This document shows, one piece after another, positions 3,224 through 54,575 of a stretch of 64,000 bases of DNA. The position numbers and the translations under genes are program-made. This DNA is from Burkholderiaceae bacterium (lineage in GTDB: Bacteria > Pseudomonadota > Gammaproteobacteria > Burkholderiales > Burkholderiaceae_C), in the NCBI GenBank assembly GCA_026125795.1, contig JAHCKM010000001.1, forward strand, positions 806,001 through 870,000. The letters are read 5' to 3'. Within the stretch, counting starts at the first letter, position 1; the number at the start of each line of letters is the position of its first letter. The notes under the pieces were generated by a model. The model worked only from the letters and a program-made list of their open reading frames with translations. It was not told the DNA's origin and searched no databases.

Positions 3224-3287
3224 CGACACGGTGTCTCCTCTTGATCGTGTTTGCGATGGGCTATGAAACCGGAACTCAGTGCCGTGG

Positions 3288-4390: not shown

Positions 4391-4445
4391 GGTGCGTGTA
4401 TCGAGTTGGAGGGAGTATATTCGGTTCATCGCAACTTCGAACTGC

Positions 4446-4461
4446 GTTCGTAAATTCGAAC
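4446..4461. promoter_or_regulatory. IclR-type operator candidate
   Basis: The 16-base element GTTCGTAAATTCGAAC has matching arms GTTCG and CGAAC, the arrangement known for operators of PcaR/PobR-like IclR regulators. A second TTCGAAC copy lies at 4436-4442. The element sits between the divergent regulator and aldolase operons and ends 10 bases before the aldolase ATG. It would overlap a promoter or transcription start on that side. Confidence 0.5.
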
Positions 4462-4471
4462 GATCCACACC

Positions 4472-6315: not shown

Positions 6316-6363
6316 CCTTCCAACCCATCCCCCCGACCCATCCCAAAGACGAGGAGCAAGCTC

Positions 6364-10039: not shown

Positions 10040-10082
10040 GGATTGCCTCTCTCGAAATTGCAGCGACCGGCCTTGCGCCCGA

Positions 10083-28741: not shown

Positions 28742-29643
28742 GGGGTCTGCCTGCCTTTTGCCGCGCCTGCTCTCGCCTCGTGGAGGGTGATGTAGGCGGC
28801 GCTCATGAAAATGACCGTGCCGCCGATCCAGCTCCAGATGTCCGGCACCTCGCCGAACACGAGGAAGCCCACGAGCGAGGCCCACATCAGGCGCGTGAAG
28901 TCGAGCGGCATCAGCGCAGTGGCCTCCGCGTACTGGAACGCCTTCGTGTAGGCGAACTGCCCCACCGTGGCAATGAGAGCCGTGAACACCAGCACCGGGA
29001 TCATTTGCAAGCTGGGCCACTTCCACACCCACACCGCGAGCAAGAAAGTGAGCGGCGTGACGATGACCGACATGTAGGCGACCTGCGTGGTGCTCGACTC
29101 GGTGGTCGACATCAGCTTGATGACGATGATCGACACCGCCCAGGCCAGCGCGCCGCAGACGGCGAGCACCGGCCCGGCCGACAGCGGGACGAGGCCCGGT
29201 CGCACGATGAGCAGCATGCCGGCGACGCCGGCGGCCACCGCCAGCCAGCGGGTCGGCGTGGAACGCTCGCGCAGCAGCACGATGGCGGCGGCCGAAGCGA
29301 ACACCGGCGAGATGAAGCTCAGCGCCGTCACCGTGGCGATCGGCGTCATCGTGAGCGCCGAGAAGATCCCGAGCATCGAGATCATCAGCATCACGCAGCG
29401 GATCAGGTGCAGGTGCAGCCGCTCGGTCGTCAGCACCGCGCCGCGCGAGCGCAGCAGCGCGGGCAGCATGAAGAACAGCGCGAAGAAGTAGCGGAAGAAG
29501 GTGATCTCGAAGACGTGCAGCTCGCGCGACGCGTAGCGCACCGAGGCATGCAGCAGCGTGAACGAGGCCGCCGCGACGAGGCCGAGCGCCATGCCCTTGG
29601 CGCGGCGCGCCGGAAGCTCGGACAGCGCGCGGAGCGATGCCAT
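28738..29643 (-). CDS. EamA (DMT superfamily) transporter
   Basis: A 301-residue membrane protein with ten hydrophobic segments in two EamA repeats: LVAAASFTLLHASVRYAS to MLLIVRPGLVPLS, then VLAVCGALAWAVSIIVIK to IWSWIGGTVIFMSAAYITL. DMT carriers commonly export metabolites. The start ATG is inside TGATG, overlapping the stop of the upstream CaiB gene, and its own stop overlaps the next CaiB start. It is therefore embedded in the catabolic operon and could export an overflow intermediate. Substrate unknown. Confidence 0.88.
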   Translation of the reverse strand: MASLRALSELPARRAKGMALGLVAAASFTLLHASVRYASRELHVFEITFFRYFFALFFMLPALLRSRGAVLTTERLHLHLIRCVMLMISMLGIFSALTMTPIATVTALSFISPVFASAAAIVLLRERSTPTRWLAVAAGVAGMLLIVRPGLVPLSAGPVLAVCGALAWAVSIIVIKLMSTTESSTTQVAYMSVIVTPLTFLLAVWVWKWPSLQMIPVLVFTALIATVGQFAYTKAFQYAEATALMPLDFTRLMWASLVGFLVFGEVPDIWSWIGGTVIFMSAAYITLHEARAGAAKGRQTP

Positions 29644-30833
29644 CAGCCGATCGCCTTGCTCACCCTGAGCGCGCCGATCTCGGCGTCCGAGTAACCCGCC
29701 CAGTGCAGCACCTCCTCGGTGTGCGCGCCGAGCAGCGGTGGAGCGTGGCGCAGGCTGGCCTTCTCGCCGTCGATGGCCACCGGCACGTCGACGACGCGGA
29801 GGTCGGGCACGTGCGCGGCGGGCAGCGGCCTGATCATGCGCATCGCCGCCACCTGCGCGTCGTCGTGCACCTCGACCACGGTGTTGATCGGCGAGCATGG
29901 CGCGCCGGCGCCGCGCAAGCGGTCGACGCATTCGGCGGTGGCGTACGTCGCGGTGCGCGCCTCGAGCAGCGCGTGCAGCGCCGGGCGGTTGGCGACGCGC
30001 AGCGCATTGCTCGCAAAGCGCTCGTCCGCCGCCAGCCCGGGCACGCCGAGCGCGGCGCAGACCGCCGCGAAGAGCTTGTCGTTGGCGGCGGTGATCAGCA
30101 CCGCGCCGTCGAGCGTGGCGAACGATTCGTACGGCGCGGTCATCGGCGTCACGTCGCCCAGGCGCTGGCCGACGAAGCCTGCGCCCATGTAGTGCGTGAG
30201 GAACAGCGACATCCAGGTGACGCCGGTCTCCATCAGGCTCGTCGACACGCGCCCCCCGCGCCCGGTCTGCTGGCGGCGGTACAGCGCGGCCAGCGTGCCG
30301 ATGAAGGCCCACAGCGCGGTGCCCATGTCGACCACCGACACGCCCACGCGCGCCGGCGGGCGGTCGGCATGGCCGGTGACGCTCATGATGCCGGTGAACG
30401 CCTGGATCAGGGGGTCGTAGCCGGGTTCGCGCGCCAGCGGTCCGCTCTCGCCGAAGGCGCTGATCGCGCAGTACACCAGCCGCGGATTGGTGGCCGCCAG
30501 ATCGTCGTAGCCCAGACCGCGCGCCTCGAGGCTGCCCGGGCGCACGGCGTGCACCAGCACGTCGGCCCGGTCGGCCAGCCGTCGCACGACGTCGCGGCCC
30601 GCGGGCACGCCGATGTCGATGCCGACGCTGCGCTTGTTGCGGTTCACCGCCAGGAAGGCGGTGCCGATGCCGTGGCTTGCCGGCGGCACCCAGCGCCGCG
30701 CGTCGTCGCCGCCGGCCGGACGCTCGACCTTGATCACGTCGGCGCCGAAGTCGCCCAGCAGCTGCGTGCAGTAGGGACCGGCGATGTTCTGCGTCAGGTC
30801 CAGGACGGTGATGCCCTTCAGGATGTCGGCCAT
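29643..30833 (-). CDS. CaiB/BaiF family CoA-transferase
   Basis: A 396-residue class III CoA-transferase. MADILKGITVLDLTQNIAGP opens the protein, NRNKRSVGIDIGVPAGRDVV follows, and the catalytic aspartate is D169 (VSVVDMGTALWAF). GAGGAAC precedes the ATG. It lies 23 bases after a Bug receptor and overlaps the EamA gene, so uptake, activation and export are encoded consecutively. Confidence 0.92.
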   Translation of the reverse strand: MADILKGITVLDLTQNIAGPYCTQLLGDFGADVIKVERPAGGDDARRWVPPASHGIGTAFLAVNRNKRSVGIDIGVPAGRDVVRRLADRADVLVHAVRPGSLEARGLGYDDLAATNPRLVYCAISAFGESGPLAREPGYDPLIQAFTGIMSVTGHADRPPARVGVSVVDMGTALWAFIGTLAALYRRQQTGRGGRVSTSLMETGVTWMSLFLTHYMGAGFVGQRLGDVTPMTAPYESFATLDGAVLITAANDKLFAAVCAALGVPGLAADERFASNALRVANRPALHALLEARTATYATAECVDRLRGAGAPCSPINTVVEVHDDAQVAAMRMIRPLPAAHVPDLRVVDVPVAIDGEKASLRHAPPLLGAHTEEVLHWAGYSDAEIGALRVSKAIG

Positions 30834-30856: not shown

Positions 30857-31825
30857 TCACTCGGGCTGGATGCCCGCGTCCTTGACGAGGCGGGCCCACT
30901 TCGGAATCTCGGCGCGCACCAGCTCGCCGAGGTCGGCGCGCGAGCCCGCCAGCGGATCGACGCCGAGCTGCTGCAGGCGCTCGCGCATCGCCGGCAGCGC
31001 GAGGATGCGAACGATCTCGGCGTGCAGCCGGTCCAGCACCGGCTCGGGCGTGCCGGCGGGGGCGAACACCGCGAGCCAGCCGGTCAGCTCGTAGCCGGGA
31101 ACGCCGGCCTCGGCGACGGTGGGCACGTCGGGCAGCAGCGCCGAGCGCCGCGCGCTGCCGATGCCGAGCGCGCGCAACTTGCCGGCCCTGACCTGCGGCA
31201 GCGCGGTGACGGTGTCGGCGAACATCAGTTGAACGTGGCCGCCGAGCAGGTCGGTGATGCCTTGCGGGTTGCTCTTGTAGGGCACCGGCACGATGTCGAT
31301 GCCGGCCATCGAGCGCAGCATCTCGCCGTTCATGCGCGACAGGCTGCTGCCGTGGGCGAATTTCAGCTTGCCCGGCTGCGCCTTGGCCAGCGCGATCAGC
31401 TCGCGCACGCTCGCGGGCCCGAACGCCGGGCTGACGACGAGCAGGTTGGCGGCGATGGCCAGCGGCGCCACCGGGGCGAAGTCCTTCACCGGGTCGTAGG
31501 GCAGCTTGACGTACAGGCTGGGGTTGGCGGCCTGCGTCGTGTTGCTCGTGAAGAACAGCGTGTAGCCGTCGGCGGGCGCCTTGGCGGCGGCGGCCGCGGC
31601 GAGCATGCCGCTCGCCCCGGGGCGGTTCTCGACGACCGCCGGCTGCCCCCAAGCCTCGGCGAGCCGCGCGCCGATATCGCGCGCCAGCGTGTCGGTGGCG
31701 CTGCCTGCACTGAACGGCACGATGACCTTGACGGGTCGCGCCGGATAGCTTTCGGCGCGCGCGGCGCGCGGTGCGGCTGCTGCGACCAGCGCGGCGAGGC
31801 AGAGGGTTCGTCGATGTGGGTTCAT
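30857..31825 (-). CDS. Bug-type (TctC family) periplasmic solute receptor
   Basis: A 322-residue Bug receptor. Signal peptide MNPHRRTLCLAALVAAAAPR with a cut near ARA (residue 24). The mature start is YPARPVKVIVPFSAGSATDT, and the domain motif is VPYKSNPQGITDLLGGHVQL. The ATG at 31825 was chosen because it begins the signal peptide; no strong ribosome site is seen. It lies between the CoA-transferase-like pair and a CaiB gene. No membrane subunits are near. Confidence 0.9.
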   Translation of the reverse strand: MNPHRRTLCLAALVAAAAPRAARAESYPARPVKVIVPFSAGSATDTLARDIGARLAEAWGQPAVVENRPGASGMLAAAAAAKAPADGYTLFFTSNTTQAANPSLYVKLPYDPVKDFAPVAPLAIAANLLVVSPAFGPASVRELIALAKAQPGKLKFAHGSSLSRMNGEMLRSMAGIDIVPVPYKSNPQGITDLLGGHVQLMFADTVTALPQVRAGKLRALGIGSARRSALLPDVPTVAEAGVPGYELTGWLAVFAPAGTPEPVLDRLHAEIVRILALPAMRERLQQLGVDPLAGSRADLGELVRAEIPKWARLVKDAGIQPE

Positions 31826-31850: not shown

Positions 31851-32696
31851 TCAGGGCAGTGGACACGCGGCTTCGAGTGCGTGGAGCCGCAGCAGCGCGT
31901 CACGGCGCGCCGGGCCCGTGACGAATTCGATGTCGCGCACGCGCCGCGGGTCGATGGCGGTGCGCAGGCGGTGCAGCAGCGCCGGGTCGGGCGGCGGCAC
32001 CGTCGGCGGCGCGTCGAGCGCGACGCCGGCGGGCGTGCGTTCGCGCAGCATTGCGGTCGAGACGCCGGGATGGCGGCTCAGTGCCCGCGCGCCGTCGCTC
32101 GTGAATTCGAACACCGCGAGGTCTGTGACGAGGATCACCCGGCCGGCGCCGCGCGCGTGCATCGCCAGCGGGTCGGCGACGACGAAATCCACCGCATCGA
32201 CGAAGCTGCGCCGGTCCTGCTGCGGCAGGTAGGCGAGGAAGGGCTGCGCGATCTCGGCGAGTTCGGCCAGGCCGGCGAGCCCGGCGAAACGCCGGTGCCC
32301 CCCCGAGCGGCCCGCGACGCGCAGCGTGTTGATGCGCCCGCGCGCGTCGATCTGCAGCGGGCGCACGAACTGGCGCACCCGCCCCGTGAGGCGCGGCATC
32401 ATCTGCCCGATCCACTCCGGCGCCTCGTACCGCCGCGTCGCACCGGCGAGCGCGGCGCGTTCGCTGCGGGCGAGAAACGCCTCGCGCACGCTGCGCGTCA
32501 GCGTCAGCGCGGCCGGGTCCTCGAGCGCGGGGCCGCGCGCGCCGGCGCGCGCCTGGGCGAGCAGCGCCGCCACCTGGTTCAGCGCCGAGGCCAGGCCGAG
32601 CTGAACCACCCCGGCATCGAGGAGCCACTCGCTCATCGCGAAGACCATGGACTCGGCGGTGTCCGCCGGCGCGCCGCCGTGCGCGGGGCTCGTCAT
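31851..32696 (-). CDS. CoA-transferase family I protein, beta subunit (GctB/IpdB-like)
   Basis: A 281-residue protein with the class I CoA-transferase beta fold. The strand RQFVRPLQIDARGRINTLRV corresponds to the glutaconate-CoA-transferase B/IpdB region with its 'Q.D..G..N' pattern, and IDPRRVRDIEFVTGPARR ends the protein. I do not find the SENG-type catalytic glutamate of true transferases. In IpdAB, which opens a steroid-derived ring as a hydrolase, this residue is also absent. The start overlaps the alpha-subunit stop (ATGA). Confidence 0.78.
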   Translation of the reverse strand: MTSPAHGGAPADTAESMVFAMSEWLLDAGVVQLGLASALNQVAALLAQARAGARGPALEDPAALTLTRSVREAFLARSERAALAGATRRYEAPEWIGQMMPRLTGRVRQFVRPLQIDARGRINTLRVAGRSGGHRRFAGLAGLAELAEIAQPFLAYLPQQDRRSFVDAVDFVVADPLAMHARGAGRVILVTDLAVFEFTSDGARALSRHPGVSTAMLRERTPAGVALDAPPTVPPPDPALLHRLRTAIDPRRVRDIEFVTGPARRDALLRLHALEAACPLP

Positions 32697-33472
32697 CGGG
32701 CGTCCTCCAGGCGTGCGCGCGCCCAGCCGGCGACGGCTTCGCGTTCCAGCGCGGCGTAGTCGAGCAGCGCGGGCCAGTCCGCCTCGTACAGCGGCAGGCA
32801 GGCACCCGGCGCGGCGCCGCGCGGCGCGTGCACGACGTGGCTGACGATCGGCTCGGTCAGCTCGGCCGCCGCGCCGCCGGCGCTGGCGTCATCGACGAGC
32901 TCCTCGCACAGCACCACGGTGTGCCGTGCGGCCAGAGCGAGCAGCCGGTCGGCGCCCTTTTGGCCTGGGGATACCGCGTTGCCGCGCGCGTCGGCGCGCC
33001 AGGCGTGCACGTAAACCACGTCGATGGGCAGCGGCGGGATCGCCAGCTGCTCGTCGCCGCTGTAGGGGCAGCGCACGCGCGCGAGGTCGGGCCGCAGCCG
33101 GACCAGCGCCTGCGCATGGCGCAGCGCCAGCGGCAGGAAGCTGGCGTGCTCGACCGCGGCATTCAGCCCCAGCATCAGCGAGGTCTCGGTTTCCTCCACC
33201 ACGCTGCACTCGCCCTTCAGGCCGGGGCCGAGGCCGAGCGCTTCCATGCCCAGGTAGAACGAGCGCACGCGCCGCGGCACGCCGGCGGCGAGCAGCAGGT
33301 CAGTCTCGACGCCGCCCGTCAGCACGACCAGTTCGTCGAAGCGCGCGCCGTGCGCGGCCCAGTGCAGCGCCACGGCGAGCGGCCGGCGGCTGAAGCTCCA
33401 GCCCCCGAGCGCGACGCGCGGCACGCCTTCGGCCAGGGCTGCTGCTTGCGCGAGCGAGACGACCTTGCTCAC
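32693..33472 (-). CDS. CoA-transferase family I protein, alpha subunit (GctA/IpdA-like)
   Basis: A 259-residue protein with the alpha-subunit pattern. VPRVALGGWSFSRRPLAVAL stands for the glycine-rich CoA loop, followed by LVVLTGGVETDLLLAAGVPR, CPYSGDEQLAIPPLPIDVVYVHAWRADA (the 'D....H...AD..GN' block continues as RGNAVSPG), and VVLCEELVDD. It pairs with the beta subunit by an ATGA overlap. The pair belongs to the glutaconate-CoA transferase/IpdAB group. Given its place beside a thiolase-like/DUF35 pair, ring-opening hydrolysis is worth considering over simple CoA transfer. Confidence 0.78.
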   Translation of the reverse strand: MSKVVSLAQAAALAEGVPRVALGGWSFSRRPLAVALHWAAHGARFDELVVLTGGVETDLLLAAGVPRRVRSFYLGMEALGLGPGLKGECSVVEETETSLMLGLNAAVEHASFLPLALRHAQALVRLRPDLARVRCPYSGDEQLAIPPLPIDVVYVHAWRADARGNAVSPGQKGADRLLALAARHTVVLCEELVDDASAGGAAAELTEPIVSHVVHAPRGAAPGACLPLYEADWPALLDYAALEREAVAGWARARLEDAR

Positions 33473-33482
33473 GGGACTTGAC

Positions 33483-34640
33483 CTACAGCCCGAGCCCGCG
33501 CGCGATGATGTCGCGCTGCACCTCCATCGCGCCGCCGCCGATCTCGAACAGCTTGGCGTCCTGGAAGTGCATCGGCAGGCCGGAGTCCACCGTGTAGCCG
33601 TAGCCGCCCAGCAGGTGCAGGCCGGTGTAGGCGCAGTGCATGTAGCACTCGGCGCCGGCGACCTTGGCGAACGAGGCCTCGTTGTGGCAGGCGCCAGTCT
33701 TCTCGAGCACGCTGCCGCCGCGGTAGACGAGCAGGCGCGCCGCCTCCACGCGCAACTGCATGTCGACGATCTTGTGCCGCACCGATTGCAGCTTGGACAG
33801 CGGCTTGCCGAACTGCACGCGCTGCTTCACGTAGGCGCTGACCTCGTCGATGATCGCCTGCGAGGCGCCGACGCCGATCGCGCCGTGGTACAGGCGTTCG
33901 TTGTCGAGCCCGCCGAGCACGCACTGCCAGCCCTTGTTCACCTCGCCGATCACCGCGTCGGGCGGCAGCACCAGGTCCTTGAAGTGGGCCGAGAAGGTCG
34001 GCACCGGGCCCAGGCCCATGGTTTCGATGCGCGTCAGCTCGATGGCCGGATGACGGCCCGGGTCGGGAATCAGGAAGGTAGTGATCCCCTCCTGCTTCAC
34101 CGCCTGCGGGTCGGTGCGCGCGGCGAGGATCAGGAAGCCGGCCGACCTGACCTGCGAGCAGTAGAGCTTCTCGCCGTTGATCACCCAGTGGCCGTCGGCG
34201 CGGCGGACCGCCGTGGTGCGCAGGGAAGCTGCGTCGCTGCCCGAGCCGGGTTCGGTCAGGCCGAGCGCCATGAACACCTCGCCGCGCATCACGCGCGGCA
34301 GCACGAGGTCTCGCTGCGCCTGCGTGCCGAAGCGCGCGACCAGCGGTGCGAGGATCACCGCCGCGCGGCCCCACGCCGTCGTGATCGCTGCCGACGCGCG
34401 CGCGAACTGCTCGACGAAAGCGAGCATGCCCATCGGGTCAGGCTTCTCGAGGCCGCTGTAGGCTTCGGGCAGCAGGAAGCCGTAGTAGCCGAGTTCGCCG
34501 AGCTTCATGAACAGCTCCTGCGGCGGCTCGACCTTGTCGCGCACCCATTGCAGCACCTTCTGGCGCGGCATCTCCTTGTCCACGAAGCGCTTCGTCGTCT
34601 CGGCGATCGCGCGTTGTTCGGGGCTCAACTCGAAATCCAT
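33483..34640 (-). CDS. Acyl-CoA dehydrogenase (isovaleryl/long-chain type base)
   Basis: A 385-residue acyl-CoA dehydrogenase. The flavin motif is LGLTEPGSGSDAASLRTTAV. The late motif is IGGGAMEVQRDIIARGLGL, with Gly at the MCAD base position. The glutamate in LDNERLYHGAIGVG occupies the isovaleryl/long-chain base position instead. GAGGA precedes the ATG at 34640. It lies 23 bases after the CoA ligase and 10 before the IpdA-like gene. Confidence 0.92.
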   Translation of the reverse strand: MDFELSPEQRAIAETTKRFVDKEMPRQKVLQWVRDKVEPPQELFMKLGELGYYGFLLPEAYSGLEKPDPMGMLAFVEQFARASAAITTAWGRAAVILAPLVARFGTQAQRDLVLPRVMRGEVFMALGLTEPGSGSDAASLRTTAVRRADGHWVINGEKLYCSQVRSAGFLILAARTDPQAVKQEGITTFLIPDPGRHPAIELTRIETMGLGPVPTFSAHFKDLVLPPDAVIGEVNKGWQCVLGGLDNERLYHGAIGVGASQAIIDEVSAYVKQRVQFGKPLSKLQSVRHKIVDMQLRVEAARLLVYRGGSVLEKTGACHNEASFAKVAGAECYMHCAYTGLHLLGGYGYTVDSGLPMHFQDAKLFEIGGGAMEVQRDIIARGLGL

Positions 34641-34663
34641 GGTGGTCCTCAGGGCAGGGGGTT

Positions 34664-35992
34664 TCAGGCCGGGCGGTGGTCGATCACGCGCACGGTCTTG
34701 TAGCCGACGCGCGGCAGGTCGTCGTGGAACGAGACCTGCGTGGGCACGCCGAGTTCGGTGTCGAGGTGGTGCTGCAGGCGCTGCGCCATGGCGCCGGCTT
34801 CGGCGTCCGGCAGTGCCGGCGGGCGCAGCAGGCGCACGGCCAGCGTCGGCGGCGCCGGCGCGTGGCGCACGAGCGAGAACTCCAGGTTGCGGCCGTCGGC
34901 GCTGCGCGACAGCGCCGTCTCCACCTCGAACGGATAGACCGCCGTGTCGCGCACCGGCACGCGGTTGGCCACGCGGTCGAGCAGCGTGAAGCGGCGCGAC
35001 GTGCGGCCGCAGCGGCACGCGCCCGGATGCACGCGCACCATGTCCTCGGTGCGCCAGCGCAGGTGCGGCGTGGCGCGGCGGTAGAAGTCGGTGATGACCA
35101 TCTCGCCGACGGCGCCGTCGGCCGCAGTGCGGCCGGTGGCCGGGTCGATCACCTCGACCAGCGTCATGTCCTCGCCGTGCCAGTGCTCGCCGTCGTGGGC
35201 CTCGCACTCGCCCGAGAAGAGGTTGAAGTCCGAGCCCTGGCCCGACAGCGTGCAGACCTCGATGCCCTGCTCGGCGCGAAACTGTTCGCGCGCCTCGGGC
35301 CCGAGCGCCGCGCCCATCAGGATCGCCCGCCGGTACGGCAGCGCGGGCGTACCGGCCCGCGCCGCGGGCAGCGTGCGTGCGTGCTGCGCCATCGCGCGCA
35401 GCGTCGAGACGCCGGCCTGCAGGAAGCTCGGCCCGAGCGCACGCGCCGCATCGACGTAGCGCGCGACCTGCGCGGGCTCGTGGTTGTCGCGCACGATCCA
35501 GCGCACGCCGACGCGCTGCGCCGCGAGGCGGAAGATGTCGGCTGCCGGCGTGAACGGCGTCACCAGCAGGTGCAGCACGTCGTCGGGCCGCATGCCGGCG
35601 GCCCAGTACAGGCGGGCCAGCATCTCGGTGTTGCGGTCCAGGTCCTGCGCGTCGAAGGCCTGGTAGGTCTGGCGCCCGCTGGTGCCGGCGGACGGACCGG
35701 CGAGCACCAGCGTCTCGCGCGGCACGCACAGGTGCGGCAGGGCGCTCGCGTGGCGGTCCATCGCCGCGCGCAGGTCGTCCTTGGTGGTCAGCGGCACCGC
35801 GGCGGAGAAGTCTTCGAGCGTGCGCACCGCGCGCGCATCGATGCCCGCGAGCCGTTCGCGGTACATCGGCGAGCGCGCGCCGACCCATGCCAGCAGCGAT
35901 CGCAGGCCACGCAACTGCCGCGCGGCGCGCGCGTCGGGAGCCATCGCCTCGGCGGCGGCGTGCCACATCGGGCGCTTCGCGTCGCCCGTCAC
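34664..35992 (-). CDS. PaaK-type acyl/aryl-CoA ligase
   Basis: A 442-residue adenylate-forming enzyme of the phenylacetate-CoA ligase group, close to the usual PaaK length. The ATP loop is PSAGTSGRQTYQAF (about residues 97-110). The central Asp/Glu blocks are TLSGQGSDFNLFSGECEAHD and EMVITDFYRRATPHLRWRTEDM. A cysteine cluster (CRCG) follows, as in PaaK relatives, and the C-terminal domain ends VGYKTVRVIDHRP with the adenylation lysine. The GTG start at 35992 overlaps the DUF35 stop (GTGA). It probably activates the pathway's free acid to a CoA thioester at the expense of ATP. Confidence 0.85.
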   Translation of the reverse strand: MTGDAKRPMWHAAAEAMAPDARAARQLRGLRSLLAWVGARSPMYRERLAGIDARAVRTLEDFSAAVPLTTKDDLRAAMDRHASALPHLCVPRETLVLAGPSAGTSGRQTYQAFDAQDLDRNTEMLARLYWAAGMRPDDVLHLLVTPFTPAADIFRLAAQRVGVRWIVRDNHEPAQVARYVDAARALGPSFLQAGVSTLRAMAQHARTLPAARAGTPALPYRRAILMGAALGPEAREQFRAEQGIEVCTLSGQGSDFNLFSGECEAHDGEHWHGEDMTLVEVIDPATGRTAADGAVGEMVITDFYRRATPHLRWRTEDMVRVHPGACRCGRTSRRFTLLDRVANRVPVRDTAVYPFEVETALSRSADGRNLEFSLVRHAPAPPTLAVRLLRPPALPDAEAGAMAQRLQHHLDTELGVPTQVSFHDDLPRVGYKTVRVIDHRPA

Positions 35993-36417
35993 GGCACGAG
36001 CCTGAACACCGGCAGCGGCACCTCGCGCACGGGGAAGGCCACCTGCACGCGCCGGTCGATGGCCATGTCCTCGGGCCGGCCTTCGATCTCCGCGAACAGG
36101 AACCAGTCCTCGTCGAGCCGCACCAGGCCGATCGTGTAGGGCGCGCGCGCCTGCCACACCTTCGACGGCGGCCGGTGCACGACCGAGCAGCTGTAGATGC
36201 TGCCGTCGCCCTTCGACTGCTCCCAGTCCGGCGTCGCGCCCGCGTCGCACATCGGGCAGATCGAGCGCGGTGGGAAGATCGCGCCGCGGCAGGCCGGGCA
36301 GCGCTGGAACAGCAGCCGCCCTTCCTTCACCCCGGCCCAGTAGGGCAGGGCGTCCTGCGTGACGCGCGGCGTCGGGAACGTGTCGGTGTAGTCGGCGGCT
36401 TCGCCTTGTTCGAGCAT
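35989..36417 (-). CDS. DUF35 (zinc ribbon/OB-fold) protein
   Basis: A 142-residue protein with an N-terminal zinc ribbon of two CxxC pairs (CPAC and CPMC) and a C-terminal OB fold (IYSCSVVHRPPSKVWQARAP, YTIGLVRLDEDWFLFAEIEG). DUF35 proteins form obligate complexes with thiolase-like partners, for example ChsH2 with the Ltp2 aldolase in steroid side-chain breakdown. GAGGAG lies before the ATG. The thiolase-like gene lies immediately upstream (11 bases), as expected for a complex. Confidence 0.88.
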   Translation of the reverse strand: MLEQGEAADYTDTFPTPRVTQDALPYWAGVKEGRLLFQRCPACRGAIFPPRSICPMCDAGATPDWEQSKGDGSIYSCSVVHRPPSKVWQARAPYTIGLVRLDEDWFLFAEIEGRPEDMAIDRRVQVAFPVREVPLPVFRLVP

Positions 36418-36428
36418 CGTGGCTCTCC

Positions 36429-37676
36429 TCAACCGGCTTCGGTGCCGAGGATCACGGCGCTGTGGCAGGCGAGCATGCCGCCGGCCGAATAGGCCATCGT
36501 GCGCTTCGGAGTGTTGCCGGCGAGCCGCCCGAGCGGATTGCCGCGCAACTGGCGCACCGCCTCGACCAGCGAGTCGGCCGCGACCGAGATGCCGGGCTGG
36601 CCGAAGCCCATCCAGCCGCCGTTGGTGTCGACCGGGAAGTCGCCGCCCGGGCGCATGCGCCCGCTGCGCACCAGGTCCATCGCACGGCCCTTCGGCGCGA
36701 AGCCGAGGTCCTCGAGCTGCACCAGCACCGTGTGCGAGAAGTTGCCGGCCAGCTGCGCCATCTGCATGTCGGCGGGCGTCATGTCGGCCATCGCGTAGGC
36801 CTCGCGCGCGGCATGCGCGGCGCCTGTCGTCGTGATCGCGGGGAGCGGGCCGAGCGGCACGCTGCTGCGGCGCAGGTTGATGCGCTCGCACAGGTACTCG
36901 TGCGTGGTGCAGGTGCCGAAGCCGTGGATGTAGATCGGCCGGATCGCCGGGTTCGCGCGCGCCGCGGCCTTCGCGCGCTCGGCGCTCGTGACGACGAAGG
37001 CGCCCGCCGTGCCGCCCGGCCCCCAGGTGGCGCACATCCAGCGCCGCAGCGGCGACGAGATGTAGGGCGAGCGCATCACCTGCTCGACGGTGATCAGGCC
37101 GTGCCTGCGCTTGGCCGCCTTCGGGTGATGCACCGCCCACTCCTGGCGCTGCACCGCGACTTCGGCGAAGTCCTCCTCGGTCACGCCGAACTCGTGCATG
37201 TAGCGGCTGGCGAGCTGGGCGTAGATGGTCGGGATCGTCGGGCCGTAGGGGAACTCGAACTGCGGGCAGGCGTCGGTGGCGGCGCCGACCGCGGTGGCGT
37301 CGATGAACAGCTCCACCGCGTCGGCCTGCACGCACAGCACGTGGTCGGCCGCGCCGGCGGCGATCGCCAGCGCCGCCTGGCCCAGCATCGCGTTGACGCC
37401 GGCACCGTGGAAGGTTAGCTCGGTGGTCATGCGCACCGGCATCTGCAGGTGCGAGGCGAAGATGTTGTTCCACTGCGGGCGGCGGTCGGCCCACGGCGAG
37501 CGGCCCGTCAGCAGGATGTCGATCTGGTCCTTGCGGATGCCGGCATCGCGGAACGCCGCCCAGCTCGCCTCGGTGGCGAGCTGCAGCGGATCCTTCACGT
37601 TCTGCTTGTCGGCATAGGCGTCGCCCATGCCCAGCACGGCGGCAACCCGGCCGAGCGAGCGGTCCAGCGGCTTCAT
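36429..37676 (-). CDS. Thiolase-like protein (lipid-transfer/SCP-x type) without the thiolase catalytic residues
   Basis: A 415-residue thiolase-fold protein. The nucleophilic cysteine region reads TELTFHGAGVNAMLGQAALA, with no Cys. The normally conserved GHP motif near the C terminus is DTNGGWMGFGQPGIS, with Gln for His. Conventional thiolysis is therefore unlikely. Thiolase-like aldolases of the Ltp2 type lack these residues, use tyrosines and need a DUF35 partner, which is encoded next door. I infer a retro-aldol cleavage of a hydroxyacyl-CoA. The C terminus (MAYSAGGMLACHSAVILGTE) is intact. Confidence 0.87.
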   Translation of the reverse strand: MKPLDRSLGRVAAVLGMGDAYADKQNVKDPLQLATEASWAAFRDAGIRKDQIDILLTGRSPWADRRPQWNNIFASHLQMPVRMTTELTFHGAGVNAMLGQAALAIAAGAADHVLCVQADAVELFIDATAVGAATDACPQFEFPYGPTIPTIYAQLASRYMHEFGVTEEDFAEVAVQRQEWAVHHPKAAKRRHGLITVEQVMRSPYISSPLRRWMCATWGPGGTAGAFVVTSAERAKAAARANPAIRPIYIHGFGTCTTHEYLCERINLRRSSVPLGPLPAITTTGAAHAAREAYAMADMTPADMQMAQLAGNFSHTVLVQLEDLGFAPKGRAMDLVRSGRMRPGGDFPVDTNGGWMGFGQPGISVAADSLVEAVRQLRGNPLGRLAGNTPKRTMAYSAGGMLACHSAVILGTEAG

Positions 37677-37695
37677 GCGGTGTCCTCCGGTGGCG

Positions 37696-38853
37696 TCAGT
37701 CGCAGGGCAGGCCGAGCTGCTTGGCGATCACGCGCAGCTGGATCTCGTAGCTGCCCACGGTCACCGGCGCGACCAGCGCGTCCAGCGCCATGCGCATCGC
37801 CGGCAACTCCTCGGTGATGCCCCAGCCGCCGCCGATGTGCAGCGCGTCCTGCGTCACGCGGTAGACGGCCTGGGTCACGAACAGCTTGGCCGACGACACG
37901 TCGAGGATGATGTCCTTGACCGGCGCGCCGCTGTCCCAGCGCGCCGCGGCGTGGTACGTGAGGTGGCGCGAGGCCTCGACGTCCACGTGGCCCTGGGCGA
38001 GCTTGAAGGCGATACTCTGGTTCGCGCCGATCGGCTTGCCGAACTGCTGGCGCACCTTGGCGTAGTCCATCGCCCAGGCGAGCGCGGTCTGCATGTGGCC
38101 GAGCCAGCGGGCGGCGACCATCACGCGCTCGCGGTTGAAGCCCTCCATGATCGCGCCGAAGCCGGCCTTCAGCCGGCGCGACTCGCCGACGCGGGCGTTG
38201 TTGAGCATCACGCGGTAGGTCGGCACCGGGCGGTTGGCGTAGGTCCTGATCTGCGAGGTCTCGACCCCCGGCGTGTTGCGGTCCACCGCGAAGAAGTGCA
38301 TGCCGTGGCGGCCCTTGCTCGGGTCGGTGCGCGCGAGCACCGCCATCGTGTCGCAGTCGCCGCCCAGCGTGATGAAGGACTTGATGCCGTCGAGCACCCA
38401 GTCGTCGCCGTCGGGCCGCGCGGTGGTCTTCAGGTTCTGCACGTCGCTGCCCGCTTCGGGCTCGGTCACGGCCAGCGCGAGCAGCCGCTCGCCCGCGATG
38501 TTCTCGCGCACCATCGCATGGTGGCCTTCGTTGCCGTGCTCGGCGAGCAGCGAGCCGGCCACGCCCTGGATCAGCGCGACGATGGCGAGGTTCGGGTTCG
38601 CCTTGGCCTGCTCCTCGATCGAGATGGCCTCCTCGGTGACGCCGAGGTCGGCGCCGCCGAGCGACTCGGGGATGTGCAGGCCGACCAGCCCCGCCTTGGC
38701 GAGGGCGACGTAGAACTCGCGCGGGAACTTCGCCTCGCGATCGGCCTGCTGCCAGCGCGGCTTGATCTCGCGCTCGGCGAACTTGCGGCACATGTCGCGG
38801 AAGGCCTCGCGGTCGACGCTGTTGGCGGGAATGCGGCGTTCGGGCTGGTTCAT
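37696..38853 (-). CDS. Acyl-CoA dehydrogenase (isovaleryl/long-chain type base)
   Basis: A 385-residue acyl-CoA dehydrogenase. The flavin motif is LAVTEPEAGSDVQNLKTTA, and IKSFITLGGDCDTMAVLART follows. The glutamate in FNRERVMVAARWLG is in the isovaleryl/long-chain base position; the C-terminal motif VGSYEIQLRVIAKQLGL has Gly at the other. The ATG at 38853 lacks an obvious ribosome site. It lies 26 bases after the MaoC gene and 19 before the thiolase-like gene, giving the order hydratase, dehydrogenase, cleavage enzyme. Confidence 0.92.
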   Translation of the reverse strand: MNQPERRIPANSVDREAFRDMCRKFAEREIKPRWQQADREAKFPREFYVALAKAGLVGLHIPESLGGADLGVTEEAISIEEQAKANPNLAIVALIQGVAGSLLAEHGNEGHHAMVRENIAGERLLALAVTEPEAGSDVQNLKTTARPDGDDWVLDGIKSFITLGGDCDTMAVLARTDPSKGRHGMHFFAVDRNTPGVETSQIRTYANRPVPTYRVMLNNARVGESRRLKAGFGAIMEGFNRERVMVAARWLGHMQTALAWAMDYAKVRQQFGKPIGANQSIAFKLAQGHVDVEASRHLTYHAAARWDSGAPVKDIILDVSSAKLFVTQAVYRVTQDALHIGGGWGITEELPAMRMALDALVAPVTVGSYEIQLRVIAKQLGLPCD

Positions 38854-38879
38854 GGGCGTGGCGATGGGCGATGGGGGGA

Positions 38880-39350
38880 TCACGCGCGGCCGGCGGACGC
38901 GCGGGAGACGAGCACGCTGGCCGTGCCGCGCTGCGCCAGCGACCCGTCGGCGGCGAGGACGCGGAACTCCAGCTCGACCGCGCCCGCGCTGGCGGCCTTG
39001 GACGCGCTCACGTCGAGGACCGTGCACTCGACCACCACGCGGTCGCCGACGAACACCGGGCCGTAGAAGCGCCAACCGCCGATTCCCAGCAGAACCTGCA
39101 GCGCCTCGCCGAACACGCCGCCGAGCTGCGCGAGCACCTTGGCGACGACCAGCGGGCCGTGCGCGATCAGGCGGCCGTAGCGCGTGTTGCGCGCGAACTC
39201 GGCGTCGACGTGGATCGGATGGCGTGCCTCGAGCAGTTCGGCGTAGCCGGCGACGAGCTCGGCGCTGCAGTCGAACGCGGGCATGCCCAGGCGCATGCCC
39301 GGGCGCACGTCGCCGAGCCAGAGGGAGCCGGTGGTGTGCACGGGCGTCAT
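38880..39350 (-). CDS. MaoC-like hydratase
   Basis: A 156-residue hotdog protein of the MaoC family. FDCSAELVAGYAELLEARHP and the hydratase-like block HIDAEFARNTRYG-type sequence (IHVDAEFARNTRYGRLIAHG) are present. The C-terminal half has VFVGDRVVVECTVLDVSAS. The ATG overlaps the Bug receptor stop by ATGA. In steroid and other acyl-CoA pathways such MaoC proteins hydrate the double bond made by acyl-CoA dehydrogenases and sometimes work with DUF35 complexes. Confidence 0.85.
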   Translation of the reverse strand: MTPVHTTGSLWLGDVRPGMRLGMPAFDCSAELVAGYAELLEARHPIHVDAEFARNTRYGRLIAHGPLVVAKVLAQLGGVFGEALQVLLGIGGWRFYGPVFVGDRVVVECTVLDVSASKAASAGAVELEFRVLAADGSLAQRGTASVLVSRASAGRA

Positions 39351-40327
39351 TCCGGCTGGATGCCGAATTCCTTGATCAGACGCACGTAGCTCTGCGACTG
39401 TTCGCGCGCAAAGGCAGCGAGTGCCTGCGGCGTCGAAGGCGTCGCCTCCAGGCCGAGCGCGAGCAGCCGCGCACGCAGGTCGGGCTGGTTGAGGACCTTG
39501 GTGACTTCGCGGTTCAGCCGCTCGACCGCCTCGGCCGGCAGACCCGCCGGGCCGAACAGGCCGAACCAGGCCGGCATGTCGGCGATGCCGCGCAGGCCCG
39601 CCTCGGCGATCGTCGGCACGTCGGGGAAGAGCGCGGTGCGTTGCAGCGCGGTGGCGAGCAGCGCGCGCACCTTGCCGCCCTTGACCTGCGCCGACGCGGT
39701 CACGACATCGGTGAACATCCACTGCACCTGTCCGCCGATGAGGTCGATCAGTGCCGGCGGCGTCGACTTGTAGGGCACGTGCGTCATCTCGACGCCGATT
39801 GACCGCGCCAGCATGCCGCCGTACAGCACGCCGCCCAGGTTGCCGCTGCCGTAGTTCAGCTTGCCGGGGTTGGCGCGGGCGTGGTCGAAGAACTCGCCGA
39901 TCGTCTTCCACGGTTTGTCCGCCGCGACCACCAGCACGTACGACGTGGCCGCCAGCCGCGTGATCGGCGTGAAGTCCCGGAACGGGTCGAACGGCACGTT
40001 GCGCTGCACGCCGGCCGGGTTGGCGACGATCGAGTTCGTGGCGGCGACGAGGGTGTAGCCGTCGGGCGCGGACTTGGCTACATGGTCGAGCGCGAGCGTG
40101 GTGAGAGCGCCCGGGCGGTTGTCGATGACGACGCTCTGGCCGAGCGCGGCCGCGAGCGGCTCGGCCACGAGGCGCATCAGGGTGTCGGTCGCCGAGCCGG
40201 GCCCGAACGGCAGCACCAGGCGCACCGCGCGCTCGGGGTAGGCGGCGAGCGCGGCAATGGGCGTCAGCGCCAGGGCGGCCGGCAGTGCCAGCAGGGCGCG
40301 GCGCCTCGGGTGCTTGCGAAGGTTCAT
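39347..40327 (-). CDS. Bug-type (TctC family) periplasmic solute receptor
   Basis: A 326-residue Bug receptor and the first gene of the long minus-strand operon. The signal peptide MNLRKHPRRRALLALPAALA ends near ALA (residue 28). Mature motifs: YPERAVRLVLPFGPGSATDT, IDNRPGALTTLALDHVAKSA, HVPYKSTPPALIDLIGGQVQ. GGAGA lies six bases before the ATG at 40327. As the leading gene it may bring the pathway substrate, or report it, to the cell. Divergent from the nitronate monooxygenase at 40459. Confidence 0.9.
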   Translation of the reverse strand: MNLRKHPRRRALLALPAALALTPIAALAAYPERAVRLVLPFGPGSATDTLMRLVAEPLAAALGQSVVIDNRPGALTTLALDHVAKSAPDGYTLVAATNSIVANPAGVQRNVPFDPFRDFTPITRLAATSYVLVVAADKPWKTIGEFFDHARANPGKLNYGSGNLGGVLYGGMLARSIGVEMTHVPYKSTPPALIDLIGGQVQWMFTDVVTASAQVKGGKVRALLATALQRTALFPDVPTIAEAGLRGIADMPAWFGLFGPAGLPAEAVERLNREVTKVLNQPDLRARLLALGLEATPSTPQALAAFAREQSQSYVRLIKEFGIQPE

Positions 40328-40458: not shown

Positions 40459-41577
40459 ATGGACAACCCTCTCTGTCGCATGTTCGGCATCGACGTGCCG
40501 ATCTTTGCCTTCTCCCACTGCCGCGACGTCGTGGTCGAGGTGTCCAAGGCCGGCGGCCTGGGTGTGCTCGGCCTCGCTCGCATGCACCCCGACCGCGTGG
40601 AGGAGGACCTGCGCTGGATCGACGCGCACATCGGCGGGCGGCCCTACGGCGTGGACGTGCTGATGCCCACCACCTTCGACGCCGCCGCCGAGGGCGAGGC
40701 CAAGCACCATGCGGAGGAGTTGTTCCCGCCTGCGCACCTAGCCTTCGTGCGCGAGATGCTCGACCGCGCCGGCGTGCCGCCGCTGCCGGCGGACGAGGCC
40801 GCGCGCATCGAGCGCGAGTTGGTTTCGTCGTTCAACTTCACCCGCGCCGAGAGCTCGGCGATGATCGACAAGGCCTTCGAGCATCCGATCAAGCTGATCG
40901 TCAACGCGCTCGGCTCGCCGCCGCCCGAGCTCGTGCAGCGCGCGCACGCGCGCGGCGTCAAGGTGGCGGCGCTGGCCGGCTCGCCCAAGCACGCGATGCG
41001 GCACCGCGACGCGGGCTGCGACTTCGTCATCGCCGTCGGCACCGAGGCCGGCGGGCATACCGGCCAGACGACGTCTCTGGTGCTGTGGCCGCGCATCGTG
41101 GACGCGGTCGCGCCGCTGCCGGTGCTCGGCGGCGGCGGGGTCGGGCGCGGACGCCAGCTCGCCGCGGCCCTCGCGCTCGGCTGCGAGGGCGTCTGGTGCG
41201 GATCGGTCTGGCTCAAGACCGTGCAGAGCGAGGTGACGCCCGAGATCAAGGCGCGCCTGTTCGCCGCCGGCGCGGACGATGCCGTTCTCACGCGCAGCGT
41301 CACGGGCAAGCCCTGCCGGACGCTGCGCAGCGCCTTCACCGACGCCTGGGATGCCCCCGGCGCGCCGGCGCCGCTGCCCGCGCCGCTGCAGGCCATCCTG
41401 TGGTGGGGGCAGGGCCGCACGCGCGTCGAGCGCGTGCGCGCCAGCGAGTTCCTCACCTACCCTGTCGGGCAGATCGTCGCCGACCTGCGCGAGGAAACGT
41501 CGGTGCGGCAGGTGGTGCAGGACATGCTGAACGAACTGGCCGAGTGCAAGCAGCGTCTCGACCGCCTGCTCGATTGA
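40459..41577 (+). CDS. Nitronate monooxygenase family flavoprotein
   Basis: A 372-residue FMN-dependent TIM-barrel protein of the nitronate monooxygenase family. The N-terminal strand FGIDVPIFAFSHCRDVVVEV leads to GGLGVLGLARMHPDRVEEDL. The region with the catalytic histidine is GTEAGGHTGQTTSLVLWPRI, and the phosphate-binding loop is GGGGVGRGRQLAAALALGCEGVW. Members oxidise alkyl nitronates or act as enoyl-reductase-like enzymes, and their role in acyl-CoA clusters is not settled. The ATG at 40459 lacks a good ribosome site. It is the intact counterpart of the rearranged pseudogene at 15098-16202. Confidence 0.88.
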   Translation: MDNPLCRMFGIDVPIFAFSHCRDVVVEVSKAGGLGVLGLARMHPDRVEEDLRWIDAHIGGRPYGVDVLMPTTFDAAAEGEAKHHAEELFPPAHLAFVREMLDRAGVPPLPADEAARIERELVSSFNFTRAESSAMIDKAFEHPIKLIVNALGSPPPELVQRAHARGVKVAALAGSPKHAMRHRDAGCDFVIAVGTEAGGHTGQTTSLVLWPRIVDAVAPLPVLGGGGVGRGRQLAAALALGCEGVWCGSVWLKTVQSEVTPEIKARLFAAGADDAVLTRSVTGKPCRTLRSAFTDAWDAPGAPAPLPAPLQAILWWGQGRTRVERVRASEFLTYPVGQIVADLREETSVRQVVQDMLNELAECKQRLDRLLD

Positions 41578-41588: not shown

Positions 41589-42761
41589 TTGGCACAGCAA
41601 GGTCAAGGGCCGCTCGCCGGCCTGAGAGTGGTGGAGTTCGCCGGCATCGGCCCCGGGCCGATGTGCGGCATGGTGCTTGCCGACCTGGGCGCGGAGGTGC
41701 TGCGCCTGGACCGCATGACACCCAGCGGGCTGGGCATCGAGAGGCCGCCGCGGTTCGACCTGCTCAACCGCGGCAAGCGCACGCTGTCGGTCGACCTGAA
41801 GTCGGCCGAGGGCGTCGCGTTCGCACAGCGCGTCGTCGCGTGCAGCGATGCGCTCGTGGAGGGCTTTCGGCCCGGCACGATGGAGCGGCTGGGCCTCGGC
41901 CCCGAGCCGTGCCTGGCCCGGCACCCCAAGCTGGTCTACGGGCGCGTCACCGGCTTCGGCCAGAGCGGGCCGCTCGCGCACGCGGCGGGCCACGACCTCA
42001 ACTACATCGCGCTGTCGGGCGCGCTGCATGCGATCGGCCGCGCCGGCGGCCCGCCGACGCCGCCGCTGAACCTGGTGGGCGACTTCGCCGGCGGCGGGCT
42101 GCTGCTCGCCTTCGGCATGCTTGCGGCGCTGTGGAACGTGCAGCGCGGCGGGGCAGGGCAGGTGGTCGACGCGGCGATGGTCGACGGCGCGGCGATGCTG
42201 ATGACCTCGCTGTTCGGCCTCCATGCCAGCGGCACGCACGACGGCCCGCGTGGCACCAACCTGCTCGACTCGGGCGCGCCGCACTACGAGGTGTACCGCT
42301 GCGCCGACGGCGAGTACGTGAGCGTGGCGCCGGTGGAGGCCAAGTTTCGCGCCGTGCTGCTCGAGCGCCTGGGCATGCCCGCCGGTGCGATCGACTTCGA
42401 CGACAGCGCGCGCTGGCCCGAGGCCAAGGCGCGGCTGGCGGCGATCTTCGCCACGCGCACGCGTGCGCAGTGGTGTGAGCGGCTCGAGGGCAGTGACGCC
42501 TGCTTCGCGCCGGTGCTCGGGCCGCTGGAGGCGCACGAACATGCCCACAACCAGGCACGAGCCACCTTCATCGAGCCGGGCGGCGTGCGTCAGCCGGCAC
42601 CGGCGCCGCGCTTCGTGGGCACGCCGACGGGCGAGCCGCGTCAGGCGCACGCCGACGACACGGCGGCTTTCGAGCAACTGCGGCGCTGGGGGGTGGCAGC
42701 GGCAGACATCGACACGCTCGCTGCGAGCGGGCGGCTGCGCCAGGGCGGACCGCGTCTGTGA
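41589..42761 (+). CDS. Alpha-methylacyl-CoA racemase
   Basis: A 390-residue class III CoA-transferase-fold enzyme with the racemase fingerprint: GIGPGPMCGMVLADLGAEVL, then H135-D136 in AGHDLNYIALSGALHAIGR, and D165 in NLVGDFAGGGLLLAFG. In the studied mycobacterial enzyme the corresponding His and Asp exchange the alpha proton of 2-methylacyl-CoA. The TTG start at 41589 is preceded by AAGGA six bases away and lies 11 bases after the nitronate monooxygenase stop. It implies that a branched (2-methyl) acid such as an isoprenoid or sterol side chain is degraded nearby. Confidence 0.9.
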   Translation: MAQQGQGPLAGLRVVEFAGIGPGPMCGMVLADLGAEVLRLDRMTPSGLGIERPPRFDLLNRGKRTLSVDLKSAEGVAFAQRVVACSDALVEGFRPGTMERLGLGPEPCLARHPKLVYGRVTGFGQSGPLAHAAGHDLNYIALSGALHAIGRAGGPPTPPLNLVGDFAGGGLLLAFGMLAALWNVQRGGAGQVVDAAMVDGAAMLMTSLFGLHASGTHDGPRGTNLLDSGAPHYEVYRCADGEYVSVAPVEAKFRAVLLERLGMPAGAIDFDDSARWPEAKARLAAIFATRTRAQWCERLEGSDACFAPVLGPLEAHEHAHNQARATFIEPGGVRQPAPAPRFVGTPTGEPRQAHADDTAAFEQLRRWGVAAADIDTLAASGRLRQGGPRL

Positions 42762-49552: not shown

Positions 49553-49584
49553 TGCGGCTGTCGCGGCGCGTGCGCGCCCGTGGT

Positions 49585-50091
49585 TCAAGTCTTCGCCCCG
49601 GGGACGGGCGGCGAGCGATCGGGACCCTGTCCGCGCTTGTAGGCCATCAGCGTGCGCTTGAACGTGCACACCACCACGCCGTCCTGGTTGAAGCCCTCGG
49701 TGGCGACCGTCACCACGCCGACGTTCGGGCGGGATTTCGACTCGCGCTTGTCGAGCACCGTGGAGCGTGAGTACACCGTGTCGCCTTCGAACACCGGGTG
49801 GGGCAGGCGAACCTCGTCCCAGCCGAGGTTGGCGAACACGTTGTACGAGACGTCGATCACGGTCTGGCCGGTCACCAGCGCGAGCGTCAGGCAGGAATTG
49901 ACCAGCGGCCGGCCGAACTCGGTCTTGGCCGCGTAGTGCGCGTCGAAGTGGACGTTGGCGACGTTCTGCGTGAGCAGCGTGAACCAGATGTTGTCCTGCT
50001 GCGTGACCGTGCGCCCGAGCGGATGCCGGTACTCGTCGCCCACTTCGAAGTCTTCGAAGAAGCGCCCCTGCCAGCCGGGTTTGACCGTCAC
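49585..50091 (-). CDS. MaoC-like hydratase
   Basis: A 168-residue hotdog protein. FEDFEVGDEYRHPLGRTVTQ, the core DNIWFTLLTQNVANVHFDAH, VFEGDTVYSRSTVLDKRESK and a C-terminal VVVCTFKRTLMAYKRG are typical of MaoC-family mesaconyl/methylfumaryl or beta-hydroxyacyl-CoA hydratases. The GTG start at 50091 overlaps the TetR stop as GTGA. It is the second gene of the operon. Confidence 0.87.
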   Translation of the reverse strand: MTVKPGWQGRFFEDFEVGDEYRHPLGRTVTQQDNIWFTLLTQNVANVHFDAHYAAKTEFGRPLVNSCLTLALVTGQTVIDVSYNVFANLGWDEVRLPHPVFEGDTVYSRSTVLDKRESKSRPNVGVVTVATEGFNQDGVVVCTFKRTLMAYKRGQGPDRSPPVPGAKT

Positions 50092-54565: not shown

Positions 54566-54575
54566 GGGCCGGGCC

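Follow-up and report, generated by a model that had tools for sequence, protein, structure and literature searches.

A recurrent operon with a thiolase-fold/DUF35 pair of non-canonical conserved residues as a candidate acyl-CoA catabolic unit in Burkholderiaceae and other bacteria

The gene run and its recurrence

We analysed a stretch of 64,000 nucleotides (the window; positions 806001-870000 of contig 1, JAHCKM010000001.1) from the genome of a Burkholderiaceae bacterium (the source genome, GCA_026125795.1; 6.57 Mb in 6 contigs, 98.9% complete), and in it a putative catabolic operon of nine adjoining minus-strand genes running from position 40327 down to 31851. Coordinates are based on a reading of start codons, and the genes were named by matches to Pfam, NCBIfam and the Protein Data Bank (PDB). 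From position 40327 onwards, the genes are:

39347..40327, minus strand: TctC/Bug receptor (Bug1), at the head of the run (PF03401, 7.9e-67)
38880..39350, minus strand: MaoC-type hydratase (PF01575, 1.3e-12)
37696..38853, minus strand: acyl-CoA dehydrogenase (ACAD) 1 (Pfam)
36429..37676, minus strand: thiolase-fold protein with the non-canonical conserved residues His90, Asn312, His315 and Gln360
35989..36417, minus strand: DUF35 partner, zinc ribbon plus OB fold (PF01796/PF12172)
34664..35992, minus strand: PaaK-type AMP-forming CoA ligase (TIGR02155, 1.6e-32, below the cut-off)
33483..34640, minus strand: acyl-CoA dehydrogenase ACAD2 (Pfam)
32693..33472, minus strand: alpha subunit of the GCT/IpdAB/AibAB superfamily, with Glu96 at the position of IpdA Glu105
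31851..32696, minus strand: beta subunit of the same superfamily, with AibB as best PDB match and invariant Glu59-Asp60-Pro61

Adjacent genes overlap by 4 bases in three cases and are 10-26 bases apart in the other five. All parts of the operon are of known kinds. A scan of contigs with the thiolase-like protein yielded 42 loci, 14 of which represent the same gene set in other genomes, with 66-95% identity of the thiolase-like protein. Ten of these 14 are labelled Rubrivivax, Burkholderiales, Caenimonas, Rhodocyclaceae or Betaproteobacteria; the remaining four are a metagenome-assembled genome (MAG) labelled Bradyrhizobium (locus L069), the Rhodobacteraceae-type loci L079 and L080 (Roseovarius amoyensis) and a Gemmatimonadales MAG (L078). 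The recurring core consists of the genes for MaoC, ACAD1, the thiolase-like protein, DUF35, the PaaK-type ligase, ACAD2, alpha and beta, and all eight are present in 10 of the 14 genomes. Counted by gene, the thiolase-like protein and DUF35 were found in 14/14, the two dehydrogenases in 13/14 each, MaoC, alpha and beta in 12/14 each and the ligase in 11/14. Contig ends truncate L047, L068 and L077. In L077, the ligase is also reduced to a fragment, with a DctP gene after it; in L078, no ligase intervenes between DUF35 and ACAD2, and the contig stops after ACAD2. Extra genes are inserted in L047, L049, L069, L070, L075 and L077; in L049 and L075, these include another ACAD1-like gene.

The gene order is kept between two proteobacterial classes although the identity of ligase, alpha and beta drops to 50%. 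Since the core recurs in 14 other genomes, the gene set reflects more than chance, and the description of nine nearly gapless genes of these kinds in the first-pass annotation, a note made earlier on this DNA, was borne out. Among 60 genomes comprising the source genome and its relatives, an alpha of at least 69% identity was found only in the source genome, G002 and G046, and the unit is therefore patchy in its distribution. Gene calls from GC periodicity, which contain wrong frames in places, were used for neighbour clusters only and not for the operon coordinates. Two of the MAG loci showed peculiarities: ACAD1 of L073 (7675-8829) is apparently frameshifted or split near its end, and in L069 the copy, at 91% and of betaproteobacterial type, adjoins an IS66 transposase, which may reflect mis-binning or transfer.

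The thiolase-fold protein and the other core enzymes

The thiolase-fold protein gave PDB sequence matches to 4u4e (4e-39), Ltp2 (3e-33) and CtSal (6e-31), and its best NCBIfam match was an acetyl-CoA acetyltransferase below the cut-off. Its predicted model (mean predicted local distance difference test score, pLDDT, 72.8; predicted template modelling score 0.81) matched thiolases, Ltp2 and Sal at Foldseek E values of 1e-24 or better. A thiolase fold and an adjacent DUF35 gene with a zinc ribbon are both present, and the two products may pair; in the DUF35 protein, the C4 zinc site formed by Cys40, Cys43, Cys54 and Cys57 is invariant in 17 rows.

Residues were counted in 72 rows (17 of the operon clade and 55 others), which remained of 92 aligned rows when exact duplicates and rows with fewer than 250 aligned residues had been removed; the catalytic roles of the residues in Ltp2 and Sal (in Sal, Tyr302 and Cys304 of the YDCY motif) follow PMC12329534. 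The position of the nucleophilic thiolase Cys is occupied by His90 in all 17 clade rows. Position 310, which is His in thiolases and Tyr in Ltp2 and Sal (YDHF/YDCY), is Ala, Ser or Pro in the clade, with AGNF, SGNF, SVNF or PSNF as the motif at 310-313. The position of Ltp2 His296 is Asn312, and that of the second Ltp2 Tyr, which corresponds to the His of the thiolase GHP motif, is Gln360, as in CtSal (Gln352); in the source protein, the catalytic Tyr294 and Tyr344 of Ltp2 are thus replaced by Ala310 and Gln360. His90, Asn312, Phe313, His315 and Gln360 are invariant in the clade (17/17). In the 55 other rows, position 310 is Tyr (48) or His (7), His90 occurs once (L091, in a gapped stretch), Asn312 once (L107, YDNF) and His315/Gln360 in none.

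In the phylogenetic tree, the thiolase-like proteins of the operon are separated at 100/100 and nested in a group of 58 rows (100/100) which includes Ltp2, CtSal and 4u4e, with the thiolase 7yvy and BbsB outside. Beyond its own node, the placement of the clade is an open fork, with L108 as the nearest row at 96/63. This tree was built without the rows of L068, L069, L071, L072, L073, L010 and L011 and with rows of identical central stretch merged; row L008 of the source genome, which belongs to the operon clade, was counted as ungrouped. A plain thiolase, as in the active SCP2/BbsAB type, was rejected because the Cys, the HDAF-type His and the GHP His are all replaced, in agreement with the first-pass annotation, which had not regarded the protein as an active thiolase. 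Its further claim of an aldolase in the sense of Ltp2-ChsH2 was not supported, as both catalytic Tyr positions of Ltp2 are lost; membership in Ltp2 or Sal was rejected for the replaced catalytic Tyr (and, for Sal, Tyr302 and Cys304 of YDCY) and for the separate clade. Judged by its residues and its position in the tree, the protein is neither a thiolase nor an Ltp2/Sal aldolase and belongs to a clade of its own. The operon resembles the Ltp2-ChsH2 and Sal-Shy systems (6ok1, 9myr) in its thiolase fold with DUF35, in the presence of acyl-CoA dehydrogenase and MaoC in the set and in the lack of the thiolase Cys, and it shares the Gln at position 360 with Sal. It differs from them in Ala, Ser or Pro in place of the Tyr base, in His90 at the Cys/Gly position, in its own clade, in a separate MaoC and in the C4 zinc site, where Shy has C3H1.

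Members of the clade also occur outside the operon. Homologues of 58-60% identity are encoded on plasmids of Cupriavidus pinatubonensis, Burkholderia arboris and Paracoccus versutus, all three with the full residue set and each beside an acyl-CoA dehydrogenase and a DUF35 gene. In the annotated plasmid locus (L109), the genes follow one another as acyl-CoA dehydrogenase, MaoC, thiolase, OB-fold protein, tripartite tricarboxylate transporter receptor, CoA transferase and CaiB, with an AMP-binding gene at the edge; within the 25 kb around each of the three homologues, there was no match to the operon ligase, alpha or beta at 1e-6. A homologue of 48% identity (L082), the most distant bacterial member among those read, retains the whole residue set and is followed by an alpha/beta hydrolase and an LLM-class flavin monooxygenase (2575-4611). 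Two of three haloarchaeal copies have His90 and Gln360 without Asn312 or His315. These copies belong to locus L112, a haloarchaeal plasmid cluster with three thiolase-like/DUF35 pairs (10001-11173, 992-2242 and 5229-6404), LLM flavin oxidoreductases, a cyclase and a gene of the carboxymuconolactone decarboxylase family.

For the other core enzymes, residue counts were made without rows below the identity limits; ACAD1 of L073 was kept, with its last columns misread. ACAD1 and ACAD2 have Val and Gly, respectively, at the position of the Glu of the medium-chain type, i.e. the Glu of the Y-E-G-T motif in PDB relatives, and invariant Glu242 and Glu248 (14/14 rows each) at a position occupied by Gly or Thr in those relatives. 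We take the latter position to be the catalytic site in isovaleryl- and long-chain acyl-CoA dehydrogenases, and an invariant Glu at this alternative position suggests branched or hindered substrates. The model matches of the dehydrogenases include cyclohexane-carbonyl-CoA dehydrogenases, all far below cut-off. The MaoC protein gave a weak match to RipB/Ich itaconyl-CoA hydratase (3.7e-4), and the ligase keeps the SAGTSG motif and the C-terminal Lys432 in 12 rows.

The alpha/beta pair

The alpha subunit scored 21.5 bits against a Pfam CoA_trans cut-off of 23 and beta had no Pfam match; matches to PDB chains from the superfamily were nevertheless obtained for alpha (2e-12) and beta (2e-14). The best single-sequence PDB match of alpha was GctA (2e-12). 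A profile of 13 alphas matched AibA (5e-25), GctA (4e-24) and IpdA (1e-23), and the ranking by sequence does not decide the identity of alpha. In the column of Glu96, Glu is present in 13 of 13 operon alphas, in IpdA of strain RHA1 and in four other paralogues, AibA having Gly and GctA Gln. This position is that of IpdA Glu105, presumably the catalytic glutamate; the IpdA entries 6co6 and 6coj differ at the matching residue. The Trp of a [GA]GW motif is likewise common to alpha and IpdA and is Phe in AibA and GctA. In the alpha tree, from which the partial sequences of L038 and L041 were left out, the operon alphas form a clade at 100/100, and RHA1 IpdA groups instead with L032/L033 at 100/99; the placement of alpha relative to IpdA, AibA and GctA consists of weak, open forks. 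On these sequence grounds, alpha belongs to a separate clade, and membership in IpdA is not supported although the Glu105 position is kept. Among the 15 of 221 records listed in a plasmid search with alpha, all had at most 37% identity. An IpdA-clade protein searched against the source genome found the operon alpha first, at 37%, plus only three weaker matches. The IpdAB-like pair proposed in the first-pass annotation therefore stood in part: the IpdA-type Glu and the 37% identity speak for it, but the alphas form a separate clade. L053 (G046, contig C3) and L054 (G002, contig C208) contain yet another type of alpha, which has Glu in the column of IpdA Glu105 but GGI instead of GGW. It adjoins an NMO gene of the FabK type and, in L053, also MmgE/PrpD and an acyl-CoA synthetase that exceeds the cut-off of PRK06145.

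According to PMC5380842, the CoA-transferase glutamate is Glu54 in Gct and its counterpart in RHA1 IpdB is Gly57. The catalytic position lies seven residues after a conserved Pro in GctB, AibB, IpdB and the ESG-bearing paralogue L035; by this spacing, it corresponds to Ala63 in the operon beta, where Glu59-Asp60-Pro61 is invariant (13/13). In the predicted beta model (mean pLDDT 67.5), residues 57-60 lie in a strand, and in profile-profile alignment with IpdB, GctB and AibB the register of positions 55-65 was not reliable. None of the 13 aligned rows has a Cys at 57-67, where AibB has Cys56; as AibB is described as active without Cys56, the missing Cys is a weak discriminating feature.

The pair resembles IpdAB (6con, 6co6) in superfamily, Glu105 position, GW motif and FabK-type neighbour, and differs from it in the separate clade of alpha. 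For beta, the spacing points to Ala63 at the place of RHA1 IpdB Gly57, and the predicted strand points to Glu59/Asp60. Its likeness to AibA/AibB (5mzw) lies in the best PDB match of beta and the best profile match of alpha, but AibA has Gly at the Glu96 column and Cys56 of AibB has no Cys counterpart in the operon beta.

Linked genes, candidate pathway and meaning

The packed minus-strand run extends below position 31851 with Bug2, CaiB, an EamA permease, a further CaiB, an enoyl-CoA hydratase and an MFS permease. Divergently, upstream of Bug1, lie an NMO gene of the FabK type at a distance of 131 bases, a CaiB gene and a third Bug gene; the IpdC-like character of the first of these adds to what the first-pass annotation had listed. 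Four of these neighbours in detail:

30857..31825, minus strand: second TctC/Bug receptor (Bug2; PF03401, 1.3e-69; 90% orthologue in L074)
29643..30833, minus strand: CaiB/BaiF CoA-transferase (PF02515, 2.1e-124; 92% orthologue in L074)
40459..41577, plus strand: NMO/FabK-type flavin reductase, IpdC-like in kind, divergent (PF03060, 9e-42; FabK PDB matches)
41589..42761, plus strand: CaiB/BaiF CoA-transferase, start codon uncertain (PF02515, 9e-81; 79% to the L070 copy)

In 8/14 genomes, from both proteobacterial classes, the stretch with the operon also contains an MmgE/PrpD gene; these genes share about 62-95% mutual identity, and the source genome has an 85% orthologue about 50 kb away (contig position 787 kb), adjoining a second NMO, a Bug, an acyl-CoA dehydrogenase and a CaiB gene 46% identical to the Roseovarius one. 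The MmgE/PrpD assignment comes from Pfam, the NCBIfam prpD model matching at 1e-5, far below cut-off. CaiB genes akin to the divergent one are linked in 7/14 genomes and the NMO/FabK-type gene in 4/14; some of the operon loci have DctP receptors, the source locus TctC. In itaconate clusters, as described in PMC12290011, an MmgE/PrpD methylsuccinate isomerase stands beside acyl-CoA dehydrogenase, CoA transferase and itaconyl-CoA hydratase. The MmgE/PrpD linkage, together with the TctC and DctP receptors and CaiB, makes a terpenoid or steroid a less likely substrate than a small (di)carboxylate with branches or substituents or a small alicyclic acid. A steroid pathway was rejected since no true IpdA, as expected for C/D-ring (HIP) degradation, was found in the source genome; no search for the ring A/B genes (KstD, KshAB, HsaC) was made.

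From this set of genes, we infer that the operon serves the CoA-thioester stage in the breakdown of a carboxylic acid that is branched, substituted or alicyclic, a reading to which we give an even chance. After uptake through the Bug-type receptors, the acid would be activated either by the PaaK-type ligase or through CaiB; the two dehydrogenases of the branched-substrate type would then introduce an alpha,beta double bond, and MaoC would hydrate the product to a beta-hydroxyacyl-CoA. The thiolase-fold/DUF35 pair might then cleave this intermediate at a C-C bond as a retro-aldolase, and the alpha/beta pair might hydrolyse a C-C bond of a beta-dicarbonyl or ring thioester by means of Glu96. As for the thiolase-fold protein, the acid/base duty of the lost Tyr or His could fall to His90, which occupies the former nucleophile position, and Asn312 could stand in for the oxyanion-hole His of Ltp2.

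Several observations weigh against this reading. The model of the thiolase-fold protein has pLDDT below 50 at 205-220 and 353-364, close to the relevant loops, and with the known catalytic residues gone, the proteins of the clade might serve as a scaffold that catalyses nothing. MaoC has Ala42 (13/13 rows) at what we assume to be the Asp of the R-hydratase motif, which argues against a plain R-hydratase. The Glu59-Asp60 pair of beta lies on the predicted strand where relatives have the CoA-transferase Glu, so that transferase chemistry is possible, and the ligase, absent from L078 and a fragment in L077, is not strictly part of the unit.

The most serious alternative, which in our estimate falls somewhat short of even, is a pathway for branched or 2-substituted dicarboxylates in which an MmgE/PrpD epimerase, a CoA-transferase or ligase, a dehydrogenase and the MaoC hydratase would work in the manner of itaconate and methylsuccinate degradation, with the thiolase-fold/DUF35 pair in place of citramalyl-CoA lyase and no ring opened. 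It draws on the MmgE/PrpD gene in eight genomes and near the operon in the source genome, on its place in the methylsuccinate set of isomerase, dehydrogenase, CoA transferase and hydratase (PMC12290011), on the weak RipB/Ich match of MaoC, on the TctC and DctP receptors and on AibB, a 3-methylglutaconyl-CoA decarboxylase, as closest PDB relative of beta. Against it speak the lack of the IpdA-type Glu96 in AibA, the assignment of MmgE/PrpD through Pfam, with prpD of NCBIfam far below its cut-off, and the fact that alpha/beta would be a second activating enzyme next to ligase and CaiB. The operon is like the itaconate/methylsuccinate clusters of that source in MmgE/PrpD, dehydrogenase, CoA activation, hydratase and the logic of a C-C lyase; it differs in that thiolase-fold/DUF35 and alpha/beta replace (S)-citramalyl-CoA lyase and in having two dehydrogenases. 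The cyclic or terpenoid acid suggested in the first-pass annotation is a possible guess, and a branched or substituted dicarboxylate, itself a possibility, suits the TctC and tripartite ATP-independent periplasmic (TRAP) receptors, CaiB and MmgE/PrpD at least as well, as does a small polar carboxylate.

A cyclic-acid pathway, in which alpha/beta would be an IpdAB-type hydrolase of a ring like 6-oxocyclohex-1-ene-carboxyl-CoA and the FabK-type gene the counterpart of IpdC, appears rather unlikely to us. IpdAB hydrolyses COCHEA-CoA and a FabK-like IpdC lies beside ipdAB, according to PMC5380842, and the Glu96 match, the Trp of [GA]GW, the divergent NMO/FabK-type neighbour and the distant cyclohexane-carbonyl-CoA dehydrogenase matches would fit; but the alpha clade stands apart from IpdA, the NMO gene is linked in few of the genomes, the core lacks an EchA20-type gene and beta matches AibB best. 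Still less probable is an ordinary class I CoA-transferase in an operon of routine acid activation and beta-oxidation: the invariant Glu59 and Asp60 on the predicted strand and GctA as best single-sequence match of alpha argue for it, whereas by spacing beta would have Ala63 at the catalytic position, and alpha has the Glu of IpdA instead of the GctA residue.

A bolder proposal we put forward tentatively and below even odds: the thiolase/DUF35 scaffold would here carry a third solution for C-C cleavage, next to Tyr/Tyr in Ltp2 and Tyr/Cys in Sal, with His at the ancestral nucleophile position and Asn for the oxyanion-hole His. It would operate in a pathway not described so far, alongside another GCT/IpdAB/AibAB clade and an MmgE/PrpD epimerase. 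The igr-type operon for steroid side chains (Comamonas ORF40-44; PMC12502768) likewise has an acyl-CoA dehydrogenase pair, MaoC, thiolase-fold protein and DUF35; the present operon differs from it in having no fused MaoC-DUF35 and in the ligase and alpha/beta that share the operon. No recognisable description of the active-site set, the alpha clade or the operon was found in open-licence PMC text.

Elsewhere in the window, an electron transfer flavoprotein-quinone oxidoreductase (47879-49669, minus strand) represents the route by which acyl-CoA dehydrogenases pass on their electrons, and positions 52958-56603 (plus strand) encode a pair for a biotin-dependent acyl-CoA carboxylase. The source contig between 735 and 1060 kb (L058-L065) is an extensive catabolic region; many of the thiolase-like and DUF35 matches of the genome lie there, as do several genes for CaiB, Bug, TRAP and acyl-CoA dehydrogenase.

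DUF35-paired thiolase-fold proteins are abundant, with 14 thiolase-like and 9 DUF35 matches in the source genome, and relatives of the operon protein are often labelled acetyl-CoA acetyltransferase. A strictly conserved clade without the known catalytic residues, kept in an operon across phyla, offers a defined test of the chemical reach of the fold. The carriers of the eight-gene unit include two named isolates, Caenimonas sedimenti HX-9-20 and Roseovarius amoyensis GCL-8, and the substrate could therefore be sought there genetically.

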